A stretch of 64,000 nucleotides of DNA from Cyclobacteriaceae bacterium (lineage in GTDB: Bacteria; Bacteroidota; Bacteroidia; Cytophagales; Cyclobacteriaceae). Positions within the stretch are counted from its first letter, which is position 1. Each line of letters opens with the position of its first letter. The stretch is from the NCBI GenBank assembly GCA_013141055.1, contig JABFRS010000001.1, forward strand, positions 3,031,319-3,095,318. Direction: 5' to 3'. This document shows positions 445 to 55,332 of this stretch, piece after piece. The notes under the pieces are model-generated. The model did no database searches. It was not told the DNA's origin and saw only the letters and a program-made list of their open reading frames with translations. The position numbers were made by a program, and so were the translations under genes.

Positions 445-1543
445 ATGACATCAGAACAATTAAAAGATTTGAAGGCCCGAGTGGCTGCCTTGAGGAGGTA
501 TCTTTGACTACGATCGCAAGAGAGTAGAAATCGAAGACGAAGAACGTATTACACAGCAGGCCGAATTCTGGAATAACTCCAAGCAGGCCGAAGCAACCCT
601 GAAAAATATCCGAGCTAAGAAAGTCTGGACGGATGCTTATGACGCTGTCAGCAAGCAACTTGACGACCTTGAAGTATTGGTGGAATTTCATCAGGCAGGA
701 GATGTTTCCGAAGATGAGGTAAACGCGGAGTATAAAAATGCTGCGAGATCGATTGAGGAACTTGAATTCAAGAAGATGCTCAGCAAGGAAGAAGATCAGC
801 TAAGTGCTATGATCGAAATCAATCCTGGAGCAGGTGGTACGGAAAGTCAGGACTGGGCGGATATGCTTCACCGCATGTATATCATGTGGGGAGAGAAAAA
901 CGGCTATACGGTTCGTGAAGTAGATTATCAGGCAGGGGATGTTGCGGGGATTAAATCCGCGACGATCGAAATAGAAGGACCTTTTGCTTTTGGAAAGCTG
1001 AAATCTGAATCAGGCGTTCATCGTTTGGTAAGAATTTCTCCCTTTGATTCAAATGCCCGTCGTCATACATCTTTTGCATCGGTGTTTGTCTATCCTGAAG
1101 TGGATGACACAATCAATATTGAGATCAATCCGGCTGACATTGAAATGCAGACTTCCAGATCAGGTGGTGCGGGTGGTCAGAACGTAAATAAAGTAGAAAC
1201 AAAAGTTCAGCTCACACATAAGCCAACAGGAATTGTTATTGTTTGTCAGGTAGAGCGCTCTCAGCATGCGAATCGTGAGAAGGCCATGCAAATGCTGAAG
1301 TCCAGATTGTATCAACTTGAGATGGACAAGCGAAATGCTGCCCGTGATAAAGTGGAGGCTGGAAAAATGAAAATTGATTTCGGTTCTCAGATCAGAAACT
1401 ATGTATTGCATCCCTATAAACTTGTGAAGGATGCGCGCACTGGTGTTGAGCGAACGGATGCGCAAAATGTTCTTGACGGTGATTTGGATGATTTCATCAA
1501 AGCATTTCTCCTGGGCGCTCAGGAAAACGCAGTGAAACAATAA
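445..1543 (+). CDS. prfB: Peptide chain release factor 2, with programmed +1 frameshift
   Basis: Class I release factor that reads UGA and UAA and triggers peptide release on the ribosome. The gene is in two frames: codons 1-20 run from ATG at 445 to CTT at 502-504, then an in-frame TGA (505-507), and reading resumes one base on at GAC (506). The site AGGAGG-TAT-CTT-TGA-C has the same layout as the E. coli RF2 autoregulatory frameshift: an internal Shine-Dalgarno 3 nt before the slippery CTT, then a poor-context UGA. The joined protein is 365 residues, the family length. The anticodon-like SPF tripeptide is at about residues 198-200 and the catalytic GGQ at 243-245. The site should give feedback: low RF2 favours the shift. 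Annotation pipelines may call only the downstream part. Confidence 0.96.
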
Positions 1544-4661: not shown

Positions 4662-5912
4662 ATGGCAAAGCCGAAAGCAGCTCTTGGATTTATTTTTGTT
4701 ACACTTTTAATCGACGTAACAGGTTTTGGAATCATCATACCTGTTGTTCCCAGTTTGATTCAGGAGCTTCTAGGACCAGGATCATCCATAAGTCTTGCCG
4801 CAACGTATGGTGCATGGTTGATTGCTGCCTACGCTTTAACGCAATTTTTCTGCGCTCCCATCATGGGTGGACTTAGTGATCAATATGGCAGAAGGCCTGT
4901 CTTATTAGCCGCTTTATTTGGATTTGGCCTTGATTACCTGTTTGTTGTTTATGCTCCGAACATCGCATGGCTTTTTGTTGGTCGCATTATAGCGGGTGCG
5001 ATGGGAGCAAGCTTCACAACAGCCGGTGCTTACATTGCAGACATCAGTACTAATGAAAATCGCGCACAGAATTTTGGGATCATTGGCGCTGCCTTCGGGT
5101 TGGGATTCATTATTGGTCCTGTGATTGGTGGATTGCTCGGCGATTTTGGTCCTCGTGTTCCCTTTATTGCTGCTGCGATACTGACATTATTAAACTGGCT
5201 GTACGGATATTTTATTCTTCCAGAATCGCTATCGAAAGAAAACAGAAGACCCTTTGAATGGAAAAGGGCAAATCCTTTCGGGACATTATTGAATCTCTGG
5301 AAATACCCGGTTATCTCGGGCTTATTGATTGCGATAACCTGTCTTTATCTTGCTGCACATGCTGTGCAAAGCAACTGGTCTTACTTTACGATTGAAAAGT
5401 TTAAATGGGAGCCGGGTCAAATCGGTATTTCTCTTGCGGTTGTGGGTTTTATGTTTGCCATTGTTCAGGGACTTCTTATCAGGAAAATTATTCCGGCTCT
5501 GGGTCAGCAAAAGAGCGTGTTCGTTGGCCTTGCATTATACTCACTTGGATTTTTATGTTATGCTTTCGCAACACACGGTTGGATGATGTACGCCTTTACA
5601 GTCATCTATTGTCTTGGAGGAATTGCCGGGCCTGCATTACAGGGAATCATGTCAGGGGTTGTTCCTGCTAACGCACAGGGAGAATTGCAAGGAGGATTCA
5701 CGAGTCTCATGAGTGTGAGTTCTATTCTTGGCCCTTTGATGATGAATGGACTTTTTGCTTACTATACTTCTGTGGAGGCCCCTATTTATTTTCCTGGTGC
5801 AGCGATGTTGCTGGGAGCGGTGCTTACATTAATAAGCGCTGTGTTGGCGAGAAGAACTTTCAAAAAGACTAACCTTCTGAATTCTGTTCCTCCTCCGGTA
5901 GCGAAGGCTTAG
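4662..5912 (+). CDS. TCR/Tet-type MFS efflux transporter
   Basis: A 416-residue, 12-helix MFS protein closest in character to the TetA group: N-terminal [17 protein letters not shown], motif A as [14 protein letters not shown] near residue 72, motif C-like [16 protein letters not shown] around residue 145, and a [10 protein letters not shown] helix. Such proteins exchange protons for drugs or other small molecules. Many chromosomal members in Bacteroidota are not resistance determinants, so tetracycline export should not be assumed. The last 44 bp overlap the 3' end of the exonuclease gene on the other strand. Confidence 0.87.
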
Positions 5913-8079: not shown

Positions 8080-8589
8080 ATGAATTCTGCAGCAGTCATC
8101 GAAAAAGCCAAACATTCGTCTTTTTGGAGGTGGATTTTGAATCAATCACTCTACCGGATGGTTCCTTTCAATGCTCCTCACAAATTTCAGGTTGTTGAGA
8201 TCGGTGATCATTTTCTCAAAGCCCTTATTCCTTACCGTCGCAGTAACTTCAATCATATAAAAGGTCTTCATGCATGCGGACTTGCAACCATTTCGGAATT
8301 TGCGACAGGGTTCTTATTGCTTTCACGTCTCGACATAAAGAAATACAGATTGATCATGCGCCGTATTGAAATGGAGTATCATTATCAAGGTAAGATGGAT
8401 GCATATGCTGAGTTCAGCACTTCCGATGAATGGTTTCAGAAAGAAATTATAGTTCCACTGCAAACGCAGGAGTCTGTTGAGGTTCCGTGCATTATTAAAA
8501 TTCATGATGTTAAGGGAAATCACCTCACAACAGGAAAAGTTTTCTGGCAGGTCAAAGACTGGACAAAGGTGAAAACAAAACTGACTTAG
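8080..8589 (+). CDS. DUF4442 hotdog-fold protein (thioesterase-like)
   Basis: 169 residues with the DUF4442 pattern: an N-terminal helix (FWRWILNQSLYRMVPFNAPHKF), central LIPYRRSNFNHIKGLHACGLATISEFATG, and a beta-rich C-terminal half. The fold is the hotdog of YbgC/PaaI-type acyl thioesterases. Catalysis is unproven for this branch. Stand-alone gene; no enzyme partner among its neighbours. Confidence 0.78.
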   Translation: MNSAAVIEKAKHSSFWRWILNQSLYRMVPFNAPHKFQVVEIGDHFLKALIPYRRSNFNHIKGLHACGLATISEFATGFLLLSRLDIKKYRLIMRRIEMEYHYQGKMDAYAEFSTSDEWFQKEIIVPLQTQESVEVPCIIKIHDVKGNHLTTGKVFWQVKDWTKVKTKLT

Positions 8590-44732: not shown

Positions 44733-46166
44733 ATGAAGACTGCGCAACTAACAACCGATCATCTTTATCAGGAGGTAGCGGAACGTATTGAAAGATTGAT
44801 TGAGCGTAAAGCATTAAAAGTAGGAGATAAGCTGTTGTCTGTCCGTACTCTCAGTAAGGAGCAAGGAATAAGTCTCAGCACTGCATTTCAGGCGTACTAT
44901 CATCTTGAAAGCAAAGGACTTGTTGAAGCCCGGCCTCAATCAGGCTACTATGTGAAATTCACACCGGGTAACATGCTCAAGGTTCCTACTACGTGCGATC
45001 CATCAGAAGAGGCGCTGCCCGTTACCATTGATGAAATGATCAGCAGCGTGTATCACGACCTTCGTTCCGACAAGCTGATTAATTTTTCACTAGGTGCTCC
45101 TTCTGTTGAATTGTTGCCAGCAGCAAAACTGAACAAGGCTGTAACTCACGCACTCCGAACCTCTCAGGATAGCTGTCTTAACTATGAGCACATCCAGGGG
45201 AATGTTGAATTGCGTAAGCAGATAGCACGACAATCATTTAACTGGGGAGGAACGTTGGGTGAAGATGATATAGTTGTAACGGCAGGCTGCATGGAAGCTT
45301 TGTCTCTAAGCCTGAAAGCCGTTACCAAACCGGGCGATGCGGTGGCCATTGAAAGCCCTACCTACTTTGCAATATTTCAGGTGATGGAAAGTCTTGGTTT
45401 GAAAGTAGTAGAGATACCAACCGATCCTGAAACCGGTGTTGATCTTGACCGCCTTGAAAGTGCGATGGCGAAATTCAACATAAGAGCGTGTCTGTTTGTG
45501 CCCAATTTCAATAACCCAATGGGCAGTTGTCTTTCAGATGAAAAGAAAAAGAAGCTGGTGGACCTTGTCACGAAAAACAATATTCCTTTGATCGAGGATG
45601 ACATCTATGGTGAATTGTTCTTTGGGAAAGTTCGTCCCCGCACATGCAAGTCATTTGACAAGAAGGGAATGGTCATTCAATGCGGATCATTCTCCAAGTC
45701 ACTGGCGCCAGGATATAGAATTGGATGGGTGGTACCAGGCAAGTTCAAAGACAGTGTTGTGCGGTTGAAGAGAATGAATAATGTCTCAACCAACACACTG
45801 GCTCAGGCTGCCATTGCAAATTTTCTTGCCAACGGCAGATATGAACTCCATCTACGTCATTTAAGAAAAGCACTGCATACTCAATGTCTTCGTTACATTC
45901 AGGCGGTGACGGAGTATTTTCCTGAGAGTACCCGGATCACTCGTCCGCAAGGAGGGTTTGCATTGTGGCTTGAGCTTGATAAAAGAATTGACTCCTATAA
46001 GCTTCACAAGCGGGCACTGAAGGCGGGTATTGGAATCGCGCCGGGTCAGATCTTTTCATCTCAGGGACAATTCAAAAATTGCTTCCGTATTTCCTTTGGA
46101 TTGCCGTGGTCTGATAAAGTTGAACAGGGTATTAAGACATTGGGTGAATTAGTGAGAAAATATTGA
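44733..46166 (+). CDS. MocR-type regulator (GntR winged helix fused to aminotransferase)
   Basis: 477 residues. The N-terminal winged helix (LYQEVAERIERLIERKALKVGDKLLSVRTLSKEQGISLSTAFQAYYHLESKGLVEA; residues ~10-75) binds DNA. From ~100 a fold-type I aminotransferase domain follows, with EHIQGNVELRKQIA, NFNNPMGSCLS, the internal-aldimine Lys in CGSFSKSLAPGYRIGW, and the C-terminal FRISFGLPW. MocR proteins sense PLP plus an amino acid or amine and act on adjacent genes. A 39-bp element before it also lies before the EamA operon. Confidence 0.92.
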   Translation: MKTAQLTTDHLYQEVAERIERLIERKALKVGDKLLSVRTLSKEQGISLSTAFQAYYHLESKGLVEARPQSGYYVKFTPGNMLKVPTTCDPSEEALPVTIDEMISSVYHDLRSDKLINFSLGAPSVELLPAAKLNKAVTHALRTSQDSCLNYEHIQGNVELRKQIARQSFNWGGTLGEDDIVVTAGCMEALSLSLKAVTKPGDAVAIESPTYFAIFQVMESLGLKVVEIPTDPETGVDLDRLESAMAKFNIRACLFVPNFNNPMGSCLSDEKKKKLVDLVTKNNIPLIEDDIYGELFFGKVRPRTCKSFDKKGMVIQCGSFSKSLAPGYRIGWVVPGKFKDSVVRLKRMNNVSTNTLAQAAIANFLANGRYELHLRHLRKALHTQCLRYIQAVTEYFPESTRITRPQGGFALWLELDKRIDSYKLHKRALKAGIGIAPGQIFSSQGQFKNCFRISFGLPWSDKVEQGIKTLGELVRKY

Positions 46167-46232
46167 TCGAAACGTACTTTGAAGTACTTAATGGCACATT
46201 TTTTTCAGCAGAATATTGAATCTGAATAAACT

Positions 46233-46262
46233 TTTGCCGCACGATCAGGGTTGTTATATTTG
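46233..46262 (+). promoter_or_regulatory. Promoter of the superoxide dismutase gene
   Basis: TTTG (46233-46236), 18-nt spacer, TATATTTG (46255-46262): an exact match to both boxes of the Bacteroidota housekeeping promoter. The 5' UTR would be about 30 nt and contains no Shine-Dalgarno. Confidence 0.85.
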
Positions 46263-46297
46263 ATTGAGATTTTGAATTAAACAAAAAGAATAAAATT

Positions 46298-46897
46298 ATG
46301 GCCTTTACACTTCCAGCTCTTCCTTATGCAGCGAATGCTTTGGAACCTCATATTGACGCTCGTACGATGGAAATCCATCATGGCAAACATCACAATGCTT
46401 ATGTTACAAATCTTAACACCGCTCTTGCCGGTAAGCCGGAAGAAAATCTGAGCATCGAAGAGATTTGCAAGAATATTTCAAAGTACCCGGCACCTGTTCG
46501 TAATAACGGAGGCGGTCATTATAATCACAGTCTGTTCTGGACGATCATGGGACCGAATTCTGGTGGCGCACCAACAGGCGCTTTGGCAGATGCAATCAAT
46601 GCTGCGTTTGGAACTTTCGATGAGTTCAAGACAAAATTCAACGCTGCAGCAACCGGACGATTTGGTTCAGGTTGGGCATGGCTTATTAAAGATGCTTCCG
46701 GCAAGCTGGCCATCACTTCAACACCTAACCAGGATAATCCTTTGATGGATGTTGCTGAAGTGAAGGGAACTCCTCTTTTAGGATTGGATGTCTGGGAGCA
46801 TGCTTATTATCTCAACTATCAAAACCGTCGCCCGGATTATTGTGCAGCTTTCTGGAATGTTGTCAACTGGAGCGAAGTAGCAAAGAGATTTGCTTAA
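46298..46897 (+). CDS. sodB: Superoxide dismutase (Fe/Mn)
   Basis: 199 residues. Metal ligands: His in [12 protein letters not shown], His in [11 protein letters not shown], and Asp/His in [28 protein letters not shown] and GSGWAWLI are the family signatures. Fe versus Mn cannot be settled by eye; the Bacteroidota enzyme is often cambialistic. Single-gene unit with its own promoter and terminator. Confidence 0.92.
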
Positions 46898-46917
46898 TCA
46901 GCATTTTCATAAAAAAT

Positions 46918-46943
46918 AAAAAAGGGCATTCGTGCCCTTTTTT
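46918..46943. terminator. Bidirectional intrinsic terminator
   Basis: AAAAAAGGGCA-TTCG-TGCCCTTTTTT: symmetric, with A and T runs on both sides and a stable TTCG loop. It separates the sod gene from the convergent outer-membrane protein gene. Confidence 0.88.
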
Positions 46944-46970
46944 ATTGAAGTTTAATTGACTCCTGAATTC

Positions 46971-47402
46971 CTACCTCCGGATAACGTAACTCAGTCCGCC
47001 CCTCAGAGCAAACCTCTGACTGTCGAAGAAGAAATCTCCCAACGCTTCAAACCTCCAGTTCTTTCCAATGGGTTTGGAATACCCAGCACCAAAAGAGGCG
47101 TCGTTTGCTCCAATCAATCCGCGAAAGCGAAGAAAAATATTATCGTTGGCATACCAGCGCACACCCATAACGAACGAATTTCTTTGTCGTGTCCAGATTT
47201 CGAGACCGGCACCAATGGCAAAGCGTCTTTGAATAAAATAGTTTGCTTCGAAGCCAATCTGAGCCTTATCAAAGACTTTGACATTATCAGTCTTGACGAC
47301 ATCCAGTCCGCCGCCAATGAGGATATCATTGGTGGCCTGAGCATTGGCATAAAAAGAGATCGCAGTTAAACAAAAGAACAGAGCAATTAAAAAGTTTTTC
47401 AT
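46971..47402 (-). CDS. Small outer-membrane beta-barrel protein
   Basis: 143 residues. Signal peptide (MKNFLIALFFCLTAISFYANA-Q), then strands with alternating residues: IGFEANYFIQRRFAIGAGLEIWTRQ, FVMGVRWYANDNIFLRFRGLIG, FRGG-type turns, ending RGGLSYVIRR. An eight-strand barrel of the OmpW/opacity type is likely. Function unknown. Confidence 0.75.
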   Translation of the reverse strand: MKNFLIALFFCLTAISFYANAQATNDILIGGGLDVVKTDNVKVFDKAQIGFEANYFIQRRFAIGAGLEIWTRQRNSFVMGVRWYANDNIFLRFRGLIGANDASFGAGYSKPIGKNWRFEALGDFFFDSQRFALRGGLSYVIRR

Positions 47403-47459
47403 TATTGAATTTATAGTTTAAAAAATTATTTACGATCGACAAATTAATCTATTGCTGAA

Positions 47460-49484
47460 TCATTTCTTATCCTCCAGCATTTTCTGCAAAGCTAAAAACT
47501 CGTCTCTTAATCTGGCAGCGTCCATAAATTCGAGTTCCTTCGCTGCCTTTTCCATTGCCTTCCTGGTCTGATCCACCATTTTGGTTAGCTCCTCCTTGCT
47601 GAGGTAAGCCATTACAGGATCTGCCGCAAGAGAGGTCTCTTCATTTTCAACATAGTATTTCTTGAAAGACTTCTTGGAGTCAGCCACTTTCGTTTGCCCA
47701 AGAATTGAATCTTTGGAACGGATGATGGTCTGAGGCGTGATCCCGTTCGCAATATTATATTCCGTCTGGATCTTTCTTCTGCGATCTGTTTCATCGATGG
47801 CCATCTGCATGGATTCCGTGATCTTGTCAGCATACATGATGACACGACCATTGACATTTCTTGCAGCGCGGCCTATCGTCTGAACCAGTGATCTCTCATT
47901 TCGCAAGAAGCCTTCCTTGTCGGCATCCAGAATAGCCACCAGGGAAACCTCAGGAAGATCCAGTCCTTCGCGCAAAAGATTGACACCCACCAGCACATCA
48001 AATACTCCTAAACGCAATTCTCTTAAGATCTCAACCCGGTCAAGAGTCGCAACTTCTGAATGGATGTACCGACATTTTACAGATGCTCTTTCTAAAAACT
48101 TAGTAAGCTCCTCTGCCATTCTTTTGGTCAACGTCGTCACCAGAACACGTTCTCTTCTCTTCACCCTCTCATCAATTTCTTCCAGAAGATCGTCGATCTG
48201 TGTCTTGCTGGGGCGAACATCTATCTGCGGATCCAGCAATCCCGTCGGGCGAATGATCTGCTCAACAACAACACCTTCTGATTTCCTTAATTCATATTCA
48301 CTGGGCGTTGCGCTTACGTACACGACCTGATTCATCAATGTTTCAAATTCATTGAAAGTCAATGGGCGATTGTCAAGCGCTGATGGCAACCGAAATCCAA
48401 AATCAACCAGATTTGCTTTGCGCGAACGGTCTCCACCCCACATCGCGCGAACCTGAGGAACGCTTACGTGACTTTCGTCAATGACCATTAAATAGTCGTC
48501 CGGGAAGTAGTCAATCAGACAGAAGGGTCTGTCGCCAGGCTTTCTTCTATCAAAGTATCGCGAGTAATTTTCAATGCCGCTGCAATAGCCCAGCTCACGC
48601 ATCATTTCCAGATCAAACTCGGTTCGTTCTTTTAATCGTTTGGCTTCCAGGTGACGTTTATCTGATTCAAACAATTCAACCTGCAGCATCATATCATCCT
48701 GAATCTCACGGATCGCCTGATGTAAGGAGTCCTTTCCTGTAACGAAAAGGTTGGCAGGGAATATGGTCACCACACTTTCATTGGAGATCTTTCTTCCCGT
48801 CACTGGATCGATCCTCTGAATAGATTCAATCTCGTCTCCCAGGAAATAGATCCGGATAGCATAATCGGCATACGCAAGAAATACATCTACCGTATCGCCC
48901 TTCACTCTGAAATTACTTCTCTTGAATTCGACTTCTGAGCGACTGTAAAGAATATCCACCAGGCCAAACAGCAGCTTGTTCCGTGAGATCATCTCGCCGA
49001 CCTTAAGCTGTATTCTGTTCTTCCCAAACTCAACCGGATTTCCGATACCGTAAATACATGAAACGGATGCCACTACGATCACATCTCTTCTGCCCGTGAG
49101 CAGAGCCGAGGTAGCACTCAATCTGAGCTTCTCAATTTCTTCATTGATGGAAAGATCTTTTTCAATGTAAAGATTGGAAGAAGGAATGAACGCTTCCGGC
49201 TGGTAATAATCGTAATAGGAGATAAAGAACTCGACAGCATTTTCGGGGAAGAACTGTTTGAACTCCCCAAATAGCTGAGCTGCAAGAGTTTTATTGTGAC
49301 TTAATACAAGGGTAGGTCTGTTCGTGTTGGCAATTACGTTGGCGACTGTAAAAGTCTTCCCGGAGCCGGTAACACCTAACAGCGTCTGGTGTGCTTCTCC
49401 TTCTTCAATGCCCGTAACTAATTTCTTGATTGCCGCCGGCTGATCTCCGGTCGGTACGTATTCGCTCGTCAGTTTGAAATCCAT
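47460..49484 (-). CDS. uvrB: Excinuclease ABC subunit B
   Basis: 674 residues, full length. Walker A GVTGSGKTFT near 40, DNA-hairpin region YYDYYQPEAFIPSS, DEAD-like VIDESHVS, helicase motifs V/VI (GVNLLREGLDLPEVSLVAILDADKEGFLRNERSLVQTIGRAARN), and the C-terminal UVR domain (LEFMDAARLRDEF) for UvrC binding. Nucleotide-excision repair. Starts at ATG 49484, just downstream of a repeat region. Confidence 0.97.
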   Translation of the reverse strand: MDFKLTSEYVPTGDQPAAIKKLVTGIEEGEAHQTLLGVTGSGKTFTVANVIANTNRPTLVLSHNKTLAAQLFGEFKQFFPENAVEFFISYYDYYQPEAFIPSSNLYIEKDLSINEEIEKLRLSATSALLTGRRDVIVVASVSCIYGIGNPVEFGKNRIQLKVGEMISRNKLLFGLVDILYSRSEVEFKRSNFRVKGDTVDVFLAYADYAIRIYFLGDEIESIQRIDPVTGRKISNESVVTIFPANLFVTGKDSLHQAIREIQDDMMLQVELFESDKRHLEAKRLKERTEFDLEMMRELGYCSGIENYSRYFDRRKPGDRPFCLIDYFPDDYLMVIDESHVSVPQVRAMWGGDRSRKANLVDFGFRLPSALDNRPLTFNEFETLMNQVVYVSATPSEYELRKSEGVVVEQIIRPTGLLDPQIDVRPSKTQIDDLLEEIDERVKRRERVLVTTLTKRMAEELTKFLERASVKCRYIHSEVATLDRVEILRELRLGVFDVLVGVNLLREGLDLPEVSLVAILDADKEGFLRNERSLVQTIGRAARNVNGRVIMYADKITESMQMAIDETDRRRKIQTEYNIANGITPQTIIRSKDSILGQTKVADSKKSFKKYYVENEETSLAADPVMAYLSKEELTKMVDQTRKAMEKAAKELEFMDAARLRDEFLALQKMLEDKK

Positions 49485-49522
49485 TCTGCAATTTAGCGAA
49501 GGAGCCTGACACCTCCTTTATA

Positions 49523-49568
49523 CTGTCAGACACCTGATGATTTTTTAACAAATCCAGGTGTCTGACAG
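49523..49568. repeat. Inverted repeat with GTGTCTGAC cores (REP-like)
   Basis: CTGTCAGACACCTG (49523-49536) and CAGGTGTCTGACAG (49555-49568) are perfect 14-bp complements around an 18-nt AT-rich loop. A third related core, GCCTGACACCTCC, is at 49505-49517. This is the style of dispersed palindromes linked to tyrosine (RAYT) transposases; no transposase is in the window. It fills the gap between aroE and uvrB. Confidence 0.6.
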
Positions 49569-49576
49569 CTATTGGA

Positions 49577-50320
49577 TTAGTTGTTCCAGATCGCCCAGCT
49601 TTTCTCAGCCTGTATATGCAGCATTTCAAGACCGTTCTTGATCGTTGCCCCACGCATTTCAGCTTTCTGTAAAAACTTGGTACGGGCCGGATTGTAGATC
49701 AGATCGTAAACGAAATGATTGGAGGTTACTTGTTCAAAATCAATAGGAGGCGTTGCATTCGTATCCGGTGTCATGCCAAGAGGAGTCGTATTGATGATAA
49801 GATGTGAATCTCCGATGATGCTTGGGTCCTTTTCAAGGTCTTCGTATGTATAATCACCCTAAGCTTTGTCTCTGGAGACAAGTTTGAAGTCTATAGGAAT
49901 TCTTTTCAGAGCCGCCTGAACTGCTTTTGACGATCCGCCGGTTCCGAGGATCAATGCACGTGATCCGTCAATGTTGGGAAACCATTTTTCAAGAGATTCG
50001 AGGAATGCATCGCAGTCGGTGTTATATCCTTTCAGCTTGCCATCCGATATCTTTATAACATTCACCGCTCCGATGGTCTTTGCGAAAGGGTCGATATCGC
50101 TGAGGAATTTTAAAACCTGCTCTTTGTAAGGGATGGTTACGTTAAGGCCTGCCAGTTCCGGATTTTCTTTCAGGAGGGTCTTTAGCTCGTCAACGTTCTT
50201 AAGAGTATAAAGGTCATAGTGATAATCACGCAGTCCGTCATGAAAAAACTTCTCATCGAAATATGCTTTCGAGAATGAATGAGAGACAGTAGCGCCGATT
50301 AAGCCAAATTTTTTTTCCAT
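49577..50320 (-). pseudogene. aroE: Shikimate dehydrogenase interrupted by an in-frame TAG
   Basis: The frame from ATG 50320 to the stop before 49577 would give 247 residues, normal for AroE, but codon 154 is TAG (49861-49859 on the minus strand). Upstream of it: shikimate-binding SHSFSKAYF, catalytic Lys in NVTIPYKEQ, Asp in NTDCDAF, NADP-binding LGTGGSSKAV. Downstream in the same frame: INTTPLGMTPD, VYDLIYNPARTKFL, and GLEMLHIQAEKSWAIW. One base change from AAG or CAG would explain it. TAG ends other genes here, so it is not reassigned. Either a recent nonsense mutation, suppression, or a sequence error. DUF368 lies 9 bp upstream. Confidence 0.88.
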
Positions 50321-50329
50321 GAAGTTTTT

Positions 50330-51256
50330 TTAGTTTTTTGATTTGAGATAAGTAGCTGTTTTTTCAATTGCTACTACAAGAAATACACCAAGCGCTGCGA
50401 AGAGAATGGCATGAAACAAATGCGGATCGCCTTCAAACTGACCTGGCCATACACTTTTGTCAAAGGCAGGTACCTGTACGCCGTTGTGGTCAAGACGGAA
50501 ACCGATCACATTTTTCCACGGCCACACTTTGTTAAGAGAGCCGATCATAAAGCCCGCCAGCACGGCAAGTGTTGGGAAGCGGTAATTCTTTAATACCCAG
50601 CTGAGAACATGTGAGAACCCTACCAGTCCGATAAAGCATCCCAATACGAATACGATGATCACGGGAAAATTCAATGTGATGAGTGCGGTGATGATGTACT
50701 CATACTTTCCGATGAGCAAGAGGATGAAGGCACCTGAGATCCCGGGTAATATCATTGCGCAGATAGCAAGTGCTCCACAAAAGAAAATGAAGAACAGATT
50801 ATTTGGAGTCTCAGTAGGGGAGAGCACAGTGATCGCATACGCTACCACGATCCCGATGATGAAAGAGAGTACGGTGACAAAATTCCATTTCTTAATATCC
50901 CTGAGAATAAGTGGCGATGAGACGAGGATCAATCCAAAGAAAAAGGACCAGATAGAAATAGGATGATTTGCCAGCAGGTACGTCATCAGGTTGGCAAGGG
51001 AAAATATGCTGGTAACAATCCCTGCCAGTACGCAGATCAGAAAGTTGCCATTGATTTTTTTCCAGAAGGCCGCAAATTGAAAAGAAAGCAGAAGACGAAC
51101 AGCAGTGATGTCAATCGCTTTGATAGATTCGATAAGTTCGTCGTAGATGCCGGTGATGAATGCTATAGTTCCTCCGGAAACTCCTGGTATTACATCTGCG
51201 GCTCCCATGCTTATGCCTTTGAAATACAGCAGCAGATAATCTTTCAGTGTTCTCAC
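50330..51256 (-). CDS. DUF368 membrane protein (undecaprenyl-phosphate translocase-like)
   Basis: 308 residues, about eight helices. The N-terminus DVIPGVSGGTIAFITGIYDELI and the repeat ICAMILPGISGAFILLLIGKYEYI carry the PGVSGG/PGISG motifs of DUF368. Recent work on DUF368 and DedA proteins assigned them recycling of undecaprenyl phosphate across the inner membrane, so a cell-wall role is likely. Directly upstream of aroE. Confidence 0.88.
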   Translation of the reverse strand: MRTLKDYLLLYFKGISMGAADVIPGVSGGTIAFITGIYDELIESIKAIDITAVRLLLSFQFAAFWKKINGNFLICVLAGIVTSIFSLANLMTYLLANHPISIWSFFFGLILVSSPLILRDIKKWNFVTVLSFIIGIVVAYAITVLSPTETPNNLFFIFFCGALAICAMILPGISGAFILLLIGKYEYIITALITLNFPVIIVFVLGCFIGLVGFSHVLSWVLKNYRFPTLAVLAGFMIGSLNKVWPWKNVIGFRLDHNGVQVPAFDKSVWPGQFEGDPHLFHAILFAALGVFLVVAIEKTATYLKSKN

Positions 51257-51310
51257 TTCTATTTATTTAAACCAGTAAAAAAATCGATTCGGTCTGTTTG
51301 CAGGGCAGCC

Positions 51311-52114
51311 TTAATCGATGTGAAAGGGAGGAGCGTTGTTATCTTTTTTACGTTCTAAACCCAGAAAATGAAGGAAGGTATCTCCACGAAGTCCAAGTCG
51401 GATGGTCTCTAACGGAATCACTTCTTCCGGTGCAATGTTACCAAGATTTACGTTGGCGCCTAAAAGCTTGATAAACCACACCTGCTGCGCTTTTTGCGGC
51501 GCTTCCCAGATAATTTTTTCAAAAGGGATCTTGGTTAAGATCTCCTGTACAAGACCTGACCGTACTTCACCAGAAGAACGGAATAGTCCTACGTTACCAC
51601 CTTCACGTGCTTCGCCGATCACTTTCCATGCTCCGGCTTCAAGCTCCTTCTGCATTAAGTCGATCCACTGATAAGGTGGGATGATCTTATCAGCATCCTT
51701 GGAACCTACTTCAGAAAGTACAGTGACCTGTGGTGTTAGCTTGCGTATGTAATCACATTTCTTGTCATGATCCAGATCAATCGATCCGTCTGACACTTCT
51801 GCGAATTGCAGATCATATTTATCAAGAAGCTTGCGATAATCATCAAATTGATTGCGGATGATAAAAGCCTCGAACAAAGTGCCTCCAAAATAACATGGAA
51901 GGCCTGCGTCTTTATAAACCTTTATTTTCTCTTTAAGATGTGGCGTTACGTAAGAAGTTGCCCATCCAAGTTTTACGATATCAATATGTTCAGAGCAGTT
52001 GCTTACAAAATCTTCCGTCTCCCTCAGGCTTAGGCCTTTGTCCATGGCCATAGTATATCCTATTTGCCTGGGCTTGGTGGTACGCTCAGGGAGATTATTC
52101 AACGTGTAGTTCAT
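51311..52114 (-). CDS. Phosphosulfolactate synthase homolog (ComA-like)
   Basis: 267 residues, TIM-barrel type: IGYTMAMDKGLSL, HIDIVKLGWATSYV, PCYFGGTLFEAFI, FAEVSDGSIDLD, VLSEVGSKD, and VIGEAREGGNVGLF. These are the ComA motifs. In archaea ComA adds sulfite to PEP for coenzyme M. Bacteroidota do not make CoM, so sulfolactate or a sulfonolipid precursor is more likely, though unproven. Its start overlaps the TPR gene stop by 4 bp. Confidence 0.87.
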   Translation of the reverse strand: MNYTLNNLPERTTKPRQIGYTMAMDKGLSLRETEDFVSNCSEHIDIVKLGWATSYVTPHLKEKIKVYKDAGLPCYFGGTLFEAFIIRNQFDDYRKLLDKYDLQFAEVSDGSIDLDHDKKCDYIRKLTPQVTVLSEVGSKDADKIIPPYQWIDLMQKELEAGAWKVIGEAREGGNVGLFRSSGEVRSGLVQEILTKIPFEKIIWEAPQKAQQVWFIKLLGANVNLGNIAPEEVIPLETIRLGLRGDTFLHFLGLERKKDNNAPPFHID

Positions 52115-53523
52115 GAGGGATTGTCTTTTCTAAATTGGTCGATGATCTTGTATAACGCCTTTTGGGTTTCAGGCTTTTGAAAGAAGTCAAACAGGACGGT
52201 GTGTCCTTCAAAGTTTAGTATTAAACCATTCTCTAAATAGTTGAAGGCATCTTTGAACTTGCCGGCTTCTATCAGATAAACCGCGATGCGGTAAAAAAAT
52301 TCAGGGTCGTCAGGAATCTCAGCCATCCCCTGAAGGATAACCTCAACAGCCTTTTCATATTCACCACGGTCATAATAAATAAATGACCAGTTCAGCCAGA
52401 TCTCCTTGTCTTCAGGTCCTAAATGGCTGGCCTCTTCATATGCGCTGATGCTTGAGATGGTATTGCCGATCTTAAACTCAGCATGTGCAGCTGCTTTCCA
52501 GTAGTCAGCGTTCTGTGAATTAAGCTTTACTGCCTTATTAAAGAAGTGAAGAGCCTGATACCATTTCTCCTGTTTCTCCAGGCAGCTTCCGGCACCGAAC
52601 CATGCTTCATCATACATTGAATCAAGCTTGGTCGACTTCTGGAAGAACTTTAATCCCAGATCATATTGTTCAAGACCTTCATGTGCAGCGCCCATGCAGC
52701 AATAAACTTCAGGGCTCGGTCCTTCAATGTCAATGGTCTTTCTGAATGCGTCAAGAGCTTTTTCAAACTCCTGCTTGTTCATAAAGGAGTTGCCCATGTT
52801 AAACCATGCTGAAGCAAAGTTCTCATCAAGGGCAATCGCATATTCATAAGCTTCGATCGCTTCTTCGTAACGTTCAAGCTTGTTGCAAACAATTCCAAGA
52901 TTGTACCACGCTGGTCCTGAGAAAGGATCTTCGTCAATGAATTTCTTATAGTATGATAAGCTGTTCTCAAGCTGACCTACAACATCAAGGCAGTAAGCAA
53001 GTTCGTACAGCGAACCTTCGTGATTGAGATTCTCTTCAATCGATTTTTTATAGCATTCGATCGCCTGATCAAACTCTTCTTTGCTTTGATAAGCCAGGCC
53101 CAGGCTGTAGTAGATCTCATCACGATCATCTTCAGTCATTTCAAGCGCTTGTTCGTATAGTTCAATTGCTTTTTCATGAAGGCCCTGAAGAGAGAATATC
53201 GAGCCCATGGAAAGGAGTATATCCAGATCCGTTGGGTGGAGATTGAGTGCCTGTTCCAGAAGCTCCAGAGCTTCTTCGTAACGCTGAAGATTGGAAAGGA
53301 TCTGAGCCTTTACAGCAATGAGTTCTGTTGAAAAAGGATATTGTTCCATGGCCATGGTAACGGCCACAAGAGCTTTTTTATGTTTTCCGCGATCGAGGTA
53401 GTGGTAAATGATTGTCTCGTATGCTTCGAGATCGAAAAAGCCGCTGGATTTCCTTTTGAGAATATCTTCAAAACTTCTGATCAACTCCTCCTCTTCCTCC
53501 CGTTTTCTGAATTCCTGCGCCAT
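52111..53523 (-). CDS. Cytoplasmic TPR protein
   Basis: 470 residues without signal peptide, built of about twelve TPR units (YEEALELLEQALNLHPTDLDIL, EEAIEAYEYAIALDENFASAW, and similar) from residue ~40 to the end. Highly acidic. Scaffold-like. Coupled to the ComA-like gene through a 4-bp overlap. A 23-bp inverted repeat (TGACCA..TGGTCA, 53538-53560) lies 14 bp upstream of its start. Confidence 0.88.
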   Translation of the reverse strand: MAQEFRKREEEEELIRSFEDILKRKSSGFFDLEAYETIIYHYLDRGKHKKALVAVTMAMEQYPFSTELIAVKAQILSNLQRYEEALELLEQALNLHPTDLDILLSMGSIFSLQGLHEKAIELYEQALEMTEDDRDEIYYSLGLAYQSKEEFDQAIECYKKSIEENLNHEGSLYELAYCLDVVGQLENSLSYYKKFIDEDPFSGPAWYNLGIVCNKLERYEEAIEAYEYAIALDENFASAWFNMGNSFMNKQEFEKALDAFRKTIDIEGPSPEVYCCMGAAHEGLEQYDLGLKFFQKSTKLDSMYDEAWFGAGSCLEKQEKWYQALHFFNKAVKLNSQNADYWKAAAHAEFKIGNTISSISAYEEASHLGPEDKEIWLNWSFIYYDRGEYEKAVEVILQGMAEIPDDPEFFYRIAVYLIEAGKFKDAFNYLENGLILNFEGHTVLFDFFQKPETQKALYKIIDQFRKDNPS

Positions 53524-53537
53524 TCTCTAAAAGGGTT

Positions 53538-53560
53538 TGACCAAAATACAAAACTGGTCA
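53538..53560. promoter_or_regulatory. Inverted repeat before the TPR gene
   Basis: TGACCA, 11 bases, TGGTCA. Read on the plus strand the interior (CAAAATACAAAACTG) matches the complement of the 39-bp MocR element except for a 2-base gap. It lies within promoter distance of the ATG at 53523. Possible operator. Confidence 0.35.
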
Positions 53561-53650
53561 CGAATATTAAAAAAATGGGTCTCTAATAATTTTAGGCCCT
53601 TATTTGGCTCAAAAGTCTGGTAATAATAGTCGAACTGCAACTTGCATTTT

Positions 53651-54613
53651 TTATTTCTTAGGCTTAACATTTCGCAAATAGGCCTCACAGCACCATGCAA
53701 GCGTTTGTTCCAGGCTCTTGTACCGGATTCCCAGCAAATCGACAGATTTTTGATTTTTGTATTGAAAGGATTGAACCGCCATCAGAGCTGATTGACGGGT
53801 AACAACTGGCTCTTTATTGAGCATAAAAGCCCTGATTTCTTCTGCCAGACCGGCCCAGTGCGTCAGGCCTGCAGACACTTCAATGGAGGGTGGCTTTTTG
53901 CCAAAGCGTTTGGCTACTTCCGTGAAAAAATCCTTGAAGGGAATTGACCCGGCAGACAGAATAAACTTCTCAAGATGCTGCGGTTTTTTATAGAGCTGAA
54001 ACACTGCTTCCGCCACATCACGTGCGTCAACATAATTCAATGATCCATTCGTGTAAAATGATTTCTCATTCCACACATAGTCAAACAACGTAGCACTGCT
54101 TCTTGATATCTGATCTGCCGCCAGGATCACTGAAGGATTCACCATGCTTATGGTAAGACCTTCTTCAGCGCCGCGATAAACTTCAAGCTCTGCACGGTAC
54201 TTTGATTCAGCGTAGTCGGTAGAAAGAATATTATTCCACTTGCTGTCTTCTGTGATGGGCTCACGTGTTGATCGTCCAAGCGCCGCAACGGAACTGATCT
54301 GGATAAAATTCTTTATTCCAAGCTGAAGACATGCATCAATTGCATTTCGTGTACCCTGAACATTTGTATCAAAGACCTTTCTTTCACGACGGGGATTGAA
54401 CGAAACATATGCTGCAGAATGTATAACCGTATCCGCTCCTTCAAAAGCTTCGCGCAATGAAACCTGATCAAGAACGTCTGCCTGTTTTTTTATGACTCCT
54501 TCCGGCAACTGGTGATCGCCACGATACAGCGCAACGGTCTCAACTCCTTCTGAAAGAAGTTTTGAAAGGATATGACCTCCCAACAGTCCGGTTGCACCTG
54601 TAACTACTACCAT
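53651..54613 (-). CDS. NAD-dependent epimerase/dehydratase (extended SDR)
   Basis: 320 residues. VTGATGLLGGHILSKLL opens the Rossmann fold, then HSAAYVSFNP, SSVAALGRS, and the catalytic YAESKYRAE (Y-x3-K). Family resemblance to dihydroflavonol-reductase/3beta-HSD-like SDRs. It may modify a nucleotide sugar for the adjacent exopolysaccharide genes, but the substrate is not evident. 5 bp after the CpsB-type gene. Confidence 0.86.
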   Translation of the reverse strand: MVVVTGATGLLGGHILSKLLSEGVETVALYRGDHQLPEGVIKKQADVLDQVSLREAFEGADTVIHSAAYVSFNPRRERKVFDTNVQGTRNAIDACLQLGIKNFIQISSVAALGRSTREPITEDSKWNNILSTDYAESKYRAELEVYRGAEEGLTISMVNPSVILAADQISRSSATLFDYVWNEKSFYTNGSLNYVDARDVAEAVFQLYKKPQHLEKFILSAGSIPFKDFFTEVAKRFGKKPPSIEVSAGLTHWAGLAEEIRAFMLNKEPVVTRQSALMAVQSFQYKNQKSVDLLGIRYKSLEQTLAWCCEAYLRNVKPKK

Positions 54614-54618
54614 ATTTC

Positions 54619-55332
54619 TTAAAGTGTATAATTCAACAAAGGAAGATCCAGAGCCTTCCTGTAGAATTTAGCTTGCTGAACTTTTTTAAGGATCAGCGCA
54701 TGATCCATATTATGACAATCACTTCCCAACAGATCGATCAAACCTTTTTGAATCATCTTCTCTGCCATCTTCTGGATCTGGGGACCATAGAAACCAATCA
54801 GCGAAAGCATATTGATCTGCAACAGCACTCCACGATTTCTCATATCCTCTGCTTTTTCAAGCGACATGTATTCATAGCGTTCAGGATGTGCCAGCACGGG
54901 CTTGTATCCCTGTGATGTTGCTGAGAATATGAACTCTTTCAATTGGTATGGCTCACTCATCACATTCGTTTCGAAAAGAAAATGACGATCGCCAAATGTC
55001 AATATCCTTTTCTTGTCCATCATTATCTTAATGAAGTTCTCATCCAGATAATATTCTGCTGCACAATGAAAGGGAATTGTATAACCAGATTCCTTTAGCA
55101 CCACCTTGAAATTCTCGAATGCTGTTGTTACAGATTCGGCGGTGTTGCCGTAATAATCTGTCATGATGTGAGGAGTGGTGATGATCTTCTGATATCCCAG
55201 TTCCATCAGCGCATCAATCACGGCAAATGCTTCCCGTGGTGACTTTACTCCGTCATCGATCCCCGGAATCAAATGCGAATGCATATCGGTGATCAGGGGA
55301 CGTAAAGCGGGCTTGCTAAAAAAGGAAAACAC
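54619..55332 (-). CDS. CpsB/YwqE-type PHP tyrosine-protein phosphatase
   Basis: 237 residues. PHP metal site: DMHSHLIPGIDDG at the N-terminus, TTPHIMTDYYGN, AAEYYLDENF, LAHPERYEYM, and GSDCHNMD. Dephosphorylates BY-kinases such as the Wzc-like protein encoded next to it, one base upstream, setting the kinase/phosphatase cycle of polymer length control. Confidence 0.9.
   Translation of the reverse strand: MFSFFSKPALRPLITDMHSHLIPGIDDGVKSPREAFAVIDALMELGYQKIITTPHIMTDYYGNTAESVTTAFENFKVVLKESGYTIPFHCAAEYYLDENFIKIMMDKKRILTFGDRHFLFETNVMSEPYQLKEFIFSATSQGYKPVLAHPERYEYMSLEKAEDMRNRGVLLQINMLSLIGFYGPQIQKMAEKMIQKGLIDLLGSDCHNMDHALILKKVQQAKFYRKALDLPLLNYTL

Follow-up and report, generated by a model that had tools for sequence, protein, structure and literature searches.

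Does an essential-looking gene that is interrupted by a single in-frame stop codon point to an unusual way of reading genes, or to an isolated change in its sequence? This question is raised by aroE, encoding shikimate dehydrogenase, in a Cyclobacteriaceae bacterium (assembly GCA_013141055.1), for which a stretch of 64,000 nucleotides of contig JABFRS010000001.1 (the window) was analysed. Translation of the minus strand showed that positions 49577-50320 form 247 codons plus a terminal stop in one frame, and that the sole internal stop of this frame is a TAG at codon 154 (49861-49859). The chance that the 93 sense codons past the TAG would stay open is about 0.01. The upstream open piece (49859-50320, minus strand; codons 1-153, giving 153 amino acids, then TAG) contains the substrate-binding domain together with strands one and two of the nucleotide-binding fold, and the downstream open piece (49577-49774, minus strand) gives 65 amino acids starting from Met183 of the NTTPLGM motif. 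As shown below, this is the sole aroE found in the genome and it is otherwise normal; we consider it probable (roughly 0.85) that the TAG came from an isolated change in a codon that is variable and tolerant, and that the change is either very young or artefactual. The most likely origin is an error in sequencing or a mutation of very recent date, and not a novel mode of gene decoding.

The identity of the gene was examined by profile, structure and homology searches with the read-through protein. The results showed that it matches Shikimate_dh_N (PF08501) at 61.0 bits against a cut-off of 27 (63.3 bits in the whole-genome search). No other Pfam family was matched at E 0.001, leaving the C-terminal nucleotide-binding part without a Pfam match; full-length models and structures extend over this part. 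The score against TIGR00507, the NCBIfam aroE equivalog, was below the cut-off (172.8 bits versus 200.2; residues 4-246 aligned), and because four intact relatives also fall short of it (164.4-174.3 bits), the low score is a trait of the lineage and not of the stop. Solved shikimate dehydrogenases match residues 4-247 (3don, E 2.4e-37), and the AlphaFold2 model of the read-through protein, with a mean pLDDT of 92.0, has AroE of Aquifex (2hk7_A; E 1.1e-24, TMq 0.87) as its best PDB match. Lys66, Asn87, Asp102 and Gln237, which we take to be the catalytic or substrate residues of AroE, are all among the invariant columns of 29 aligned sequences. Identity with the intact AroE of relatives reaches 84%. 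Since residues 1-247 align with these proteins end to end, 49577-50320 is a single interrupted gene; the claim of the sequence-only reading that AroE motifs lie on both sides of the TAG in one frame is thus borne out by translation and by end-to-end homology. That reading gave no strand for the gene, which is the minus strand.

The upstream neighbour of aroE is an open PF04018 gene (undecaprenyl phosphate translocase-like, DUF368; 50330-51256, minus strand), and the downstream neighbour, also open and on the minus strand (47460-49484), aligns with the same neighbour in relatives and is presumably uvrB. The order TPR gene, comA, PF04018 gene, aroE, uvrB is common to the closest relatives (L032-L034), although the locus of some other relatives lacked a match to the PF04018 gene. 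ComA (phosphosulfolactate synthase, PF02679; 51311-52114, minus strand) lies beside the TPR gene and is kept near aroE in relatives. The gap between aroE and uvrB contains a perfect 14-bp inverted repeat (arms 49523-49536 and 49555-49568, 18 nt apart), and a search of the window with its core, allowing one mismatch at most, gave no further match; this is perhaps a REP-like element. Taken together, the gene resembles known AroE in end-to-end alignment, fold, invariant residues and the gene order of close relatives, and differs in having an in-frame TAG at codon 154.

Alignment with relatives showed that codon 154 is a sense codon in all 70 relative loci aligned there (some genomes being present twice), so that the conservation of a stop that would mark programmed readthrough was not seen. 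The residue at this position is variable: among 28 aligned relatives it is K in 12, L in 3, R in 3, T, E, D and G in 2 each, and H and Q in 1 each, and the three closest relatives have leucine. Because many residues occur at position 154, it would probably tolerate the majority of sense codons, as well as a residue inserted by readthrough. In the AlphaFold2 model it comes shortly after the Rossmann strand 144-149, a region that we presume to contact the NADP phosphate in AroE enzymes.

Codon changes specific to this genome, defined as codons where L032, L033 and L034 agree and this genome differs (L005 and L038 lying outside the counts), were compared on the two sides of the TAG. The results showed 21 synonymous and no nonsynonymous changes before the TAG, and nine synonymous and one nonsynonymous after it; under neutrality, one or no nonsynonymous change in ten has a P of about 3e-5. 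In addition, this genome has kept all 114 residues that do not vary among the 18 closest aligned relatives (72 before and 42 after the TAG). By this pattern, both halves of aroE are under strong purifying selection, and the gene either was fully functional until very recently or is so still. A long-term pseudogene is rejected by the same substitutions. A rough bound confines any neutral phase to about the final 18% of the branch; the estimate is crude because synonymous sites are saturated between this species and those of L032-L034.

The genome (4.65 Mb in two contigs, 98.78% complete) contains exactly one Shikimate_dh_N match. A second aroE, which the sequence-only reading had named as something to look for, was therefore not found, and a quinate/shikimate dehydrogenase is rejected as well on the single match. 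The closest named relatives are metagenome-assembled genomes labelled Cyclobacteriaceae, Cytophagales or Flammeovirgaceae. A Shikimate_dh_N match was present in 54 of 58 genomes, this one included, and the TAG-carrying gene in this one only; the four genomes without a match are three of the same genus at 76-87% completeness and one of 1.1 Mb. In an order-wide sample, 260 of 291 genomes, again including this one, gave a match, and among the matches listed an internal stop occurred in this genome only. Four genomes of that sample (G116, G152, G160 and G226) gave two weak matches each and may hold broken aroE copies. In the 58-genome set, aroE of G022 is cut by a contig end. Two genomes of the same genus have other interruptions: in G013 aroE is divided between two frames that join near residue 185, and in G024 it is in four pieces, one with two TGA codons. 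Matching by coordinates showed that these correspond to loci L056 and L070. Frame breaks were observed there in the public relatives OLB12 and SSA6 (L056, 3001-6011; L070, 1-3738), affecting aroE as well as uvrB or the TPR gene. Because a neighbouring uvrB or TPR gene is broken too, the aroE breaks at both loci look like assembly noise and are probably assembly errors.

The sequence-only reading had offered four options for the TAG, namely a very recent nonsense mutation, a base-calling or assembly error, amber suppression and a two-chain AroE. The first two are kept and are jointly the likeliest by far, and the other two proved unlikely. A consensus or base-calling error in the assembled genome comes close to an even bet, and a real, very recent nonsense allele is a serious second candidate; the division between them is a matter of judgement. 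Of 15 ACR_tran matches (13 full-length) and 56 ABC_tran matches, none contained an internal stop, and a Pfam scan of ten window proteins, out of 59, did not clearly show any domain truncated where its frame ends. A generally error-ridden assembly is thus not borne out by these matches and proteins. Since those families are without internal stops and the neighbours of aroE are open, assembly errors are not frequent, and the good-looking assembly speaks against an error; the internal-stop test would, however, miss substitution errors that number only a few across 4.65 Mb.

Against a real allele stands the state of the pathway. The chorismate synthase, DHQ synthase and EPSP synthase families all have open frames in this genome, and on these three families a decaying pathway is rejected; of the two EPSP-family genes, the one beside aroB is presumably aroA by its position. 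For a free-living cell, losing AroE should be costly when the other pathway genes tested are intact. Given a real allele, translation would end after residue 153, giving the shikimate-binding domain with a partial nucleotide-binding fold, and aromatic amino acid synthesis would be lost or nearly so until reversion, suppression or uptake from neighbours. Both the origin of the stop, as error or allele, and this auxotroph phenotype are what we infer from the data above.

An alternative is that near-cognate tRNAs decode the TAG at a low rate, whether incidentally or under selection, so that a little full-length AroE is made, sufficient for growth or serving as down-regulation. The purifying selection on both sides of codon 154 and the many residues tolerated at this position are consistent with such readthrough, but the same selection pattern is expected for a very young stop or an error. 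Furthermore, the TAG was found in no other genome among the matches listed, and RF1 is intact. No stimulatory RNA structure was found after the TAG: the RNA there folds less well than most shuffled sequences (z +1.19; 182 of 200 shuffles reach an equal or better fold), and no Rfam match at the gathering score was found in 45000-55000. Overall, no adaptation to the stop was found in RF1, tRNAs, RNA structure or selection. We regard readthrough as unlikely. The stronger form of it, in which the TAG is real and fixed in the species, AroE is made solely by low-level readthrough and the amber codon sets the flow into aromatic synthesis, is more doubtful by a good deal.

Readthrough also finds some precedent, in that in-frame stops with dN/dS below 1 are reported to be widespread in prokaryotes. 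According to Belinky et al. 2021 (PMC7918605), such stops in bacterial genes are mostly short-lived, and a substantial share of those initially detected is expected to be artefactual; for this reason the authors focus on stops common to at least two species. The aroE TAG is like their cases in being a lone stop, apparently short-lived, with purifying selection on both sides, and unlike them in occurring in one genome. It fits the known picture of short-lived in-frame stops, a phenomenon already known from their work (PMC7918605). In the part of the literature covered by our searches, no title dealt with aroE from this group carrying an amber codon, and none on nonsense mutation of aroE or shikimate dehydrogenase was on point.

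Dedicated amber suppression or recoding of TAG, by a suppressor tRNA or an altered code, is very improbable. An in-frame TAG in an essential-looking gene speaks for it, but tRNA searches, which had been proposed as a check on this option, showed no suppressor. None of 33 tRNAs, all named by ARAGORN (150 of 259 first-look candidates having been scored), has a CTA anticodon. A pattern combining a CTA anticodon with a T-arm occurred at eight places, versus 75 for the reversed control pattern; one of the eight is inside a tRNA-Arg(TCT) gene, and the remaining seven gave no tRNA with ARAGORN. It should be said in favour of suppression that the genome sequence searched yielded no 16S rRNA, and that the 33 tRNAs listed include neither tRNA-Ile(GAT) nor tRNA-Ala(TGC); an rRNA operon appears to be absent from this sequence, and part of the genome is therefore probably unseen.

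The release factors and other genes likewise argue against suppression. RF1 (prfA) is present with an open frame, so that loss of RF1 is rejected, and RF2 is encoded in the window. The RF2 gene prfB (445-1543, plus strand) has AGGAGG at 493-498 and CTTTGAC at 502-508, its second frame running to 1543, and this looks like the textbook programmed +1 frameshift site. TAG serves as a normal stop in the window, as had been claimed from the sequence alone with the correct examples 5910-5912 and 8587-8589: 12 of 59 hand-picked ORFs end in TAG when aroE is included, and past the TAG of the other 11 (of 58) the frame closes within 0-35 codons. No in-frame TAG was found in the other conserved genes searched, namely the ACR_tran and ABC_tran matches, prfA and the matches to the chorismate, EPSP and DHQ synthase families. 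With no CTA tRNA, an intact RF1 and no internal stop in these families, the suppression option is unlikely.

A two-chain AroE, made of the 153-residue piece and a C-terminal piece restarted at the in-frame ATG at 49774, is very unlikely and almost excluded. This ATG encodes Met183, which belongs to the NTTPLGM motif; it comes 29 codons after the TAG, and no ATG, GTG or TTG separates the two. A chain starting at this codon would be without residues 154-182, and hence without the core strand 174-177 of the nucleotide-binding fold. A stop at codon 154 occurs in none of the 70 aligned relative loci, and the only hint of such a split elsewhere, the frames of G013 (L056) meeting near residue 185, comes from a locus whose uvrB is broken too. 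Of the nucleotide-binding fold, the first piece retains only strands 121-125 and 144-149, and it is without the C-terminal helix that bears the invariant Gln237.

A recent nonsense mutation or a consensus error at a tolerant codon of the sole aroE found is therefore the reading that we prefer. For annotation, the locus is a caution, since a single codon is enough to break a gene of core biosynthesis in two although the genome looks good; rightly or wrongly, the organism would be classed by metabolic models as an aromatic auxotroph. If the TAG is real and fixed, the gene would be a natural test of the amount of readthrough that an essential pathway needs.
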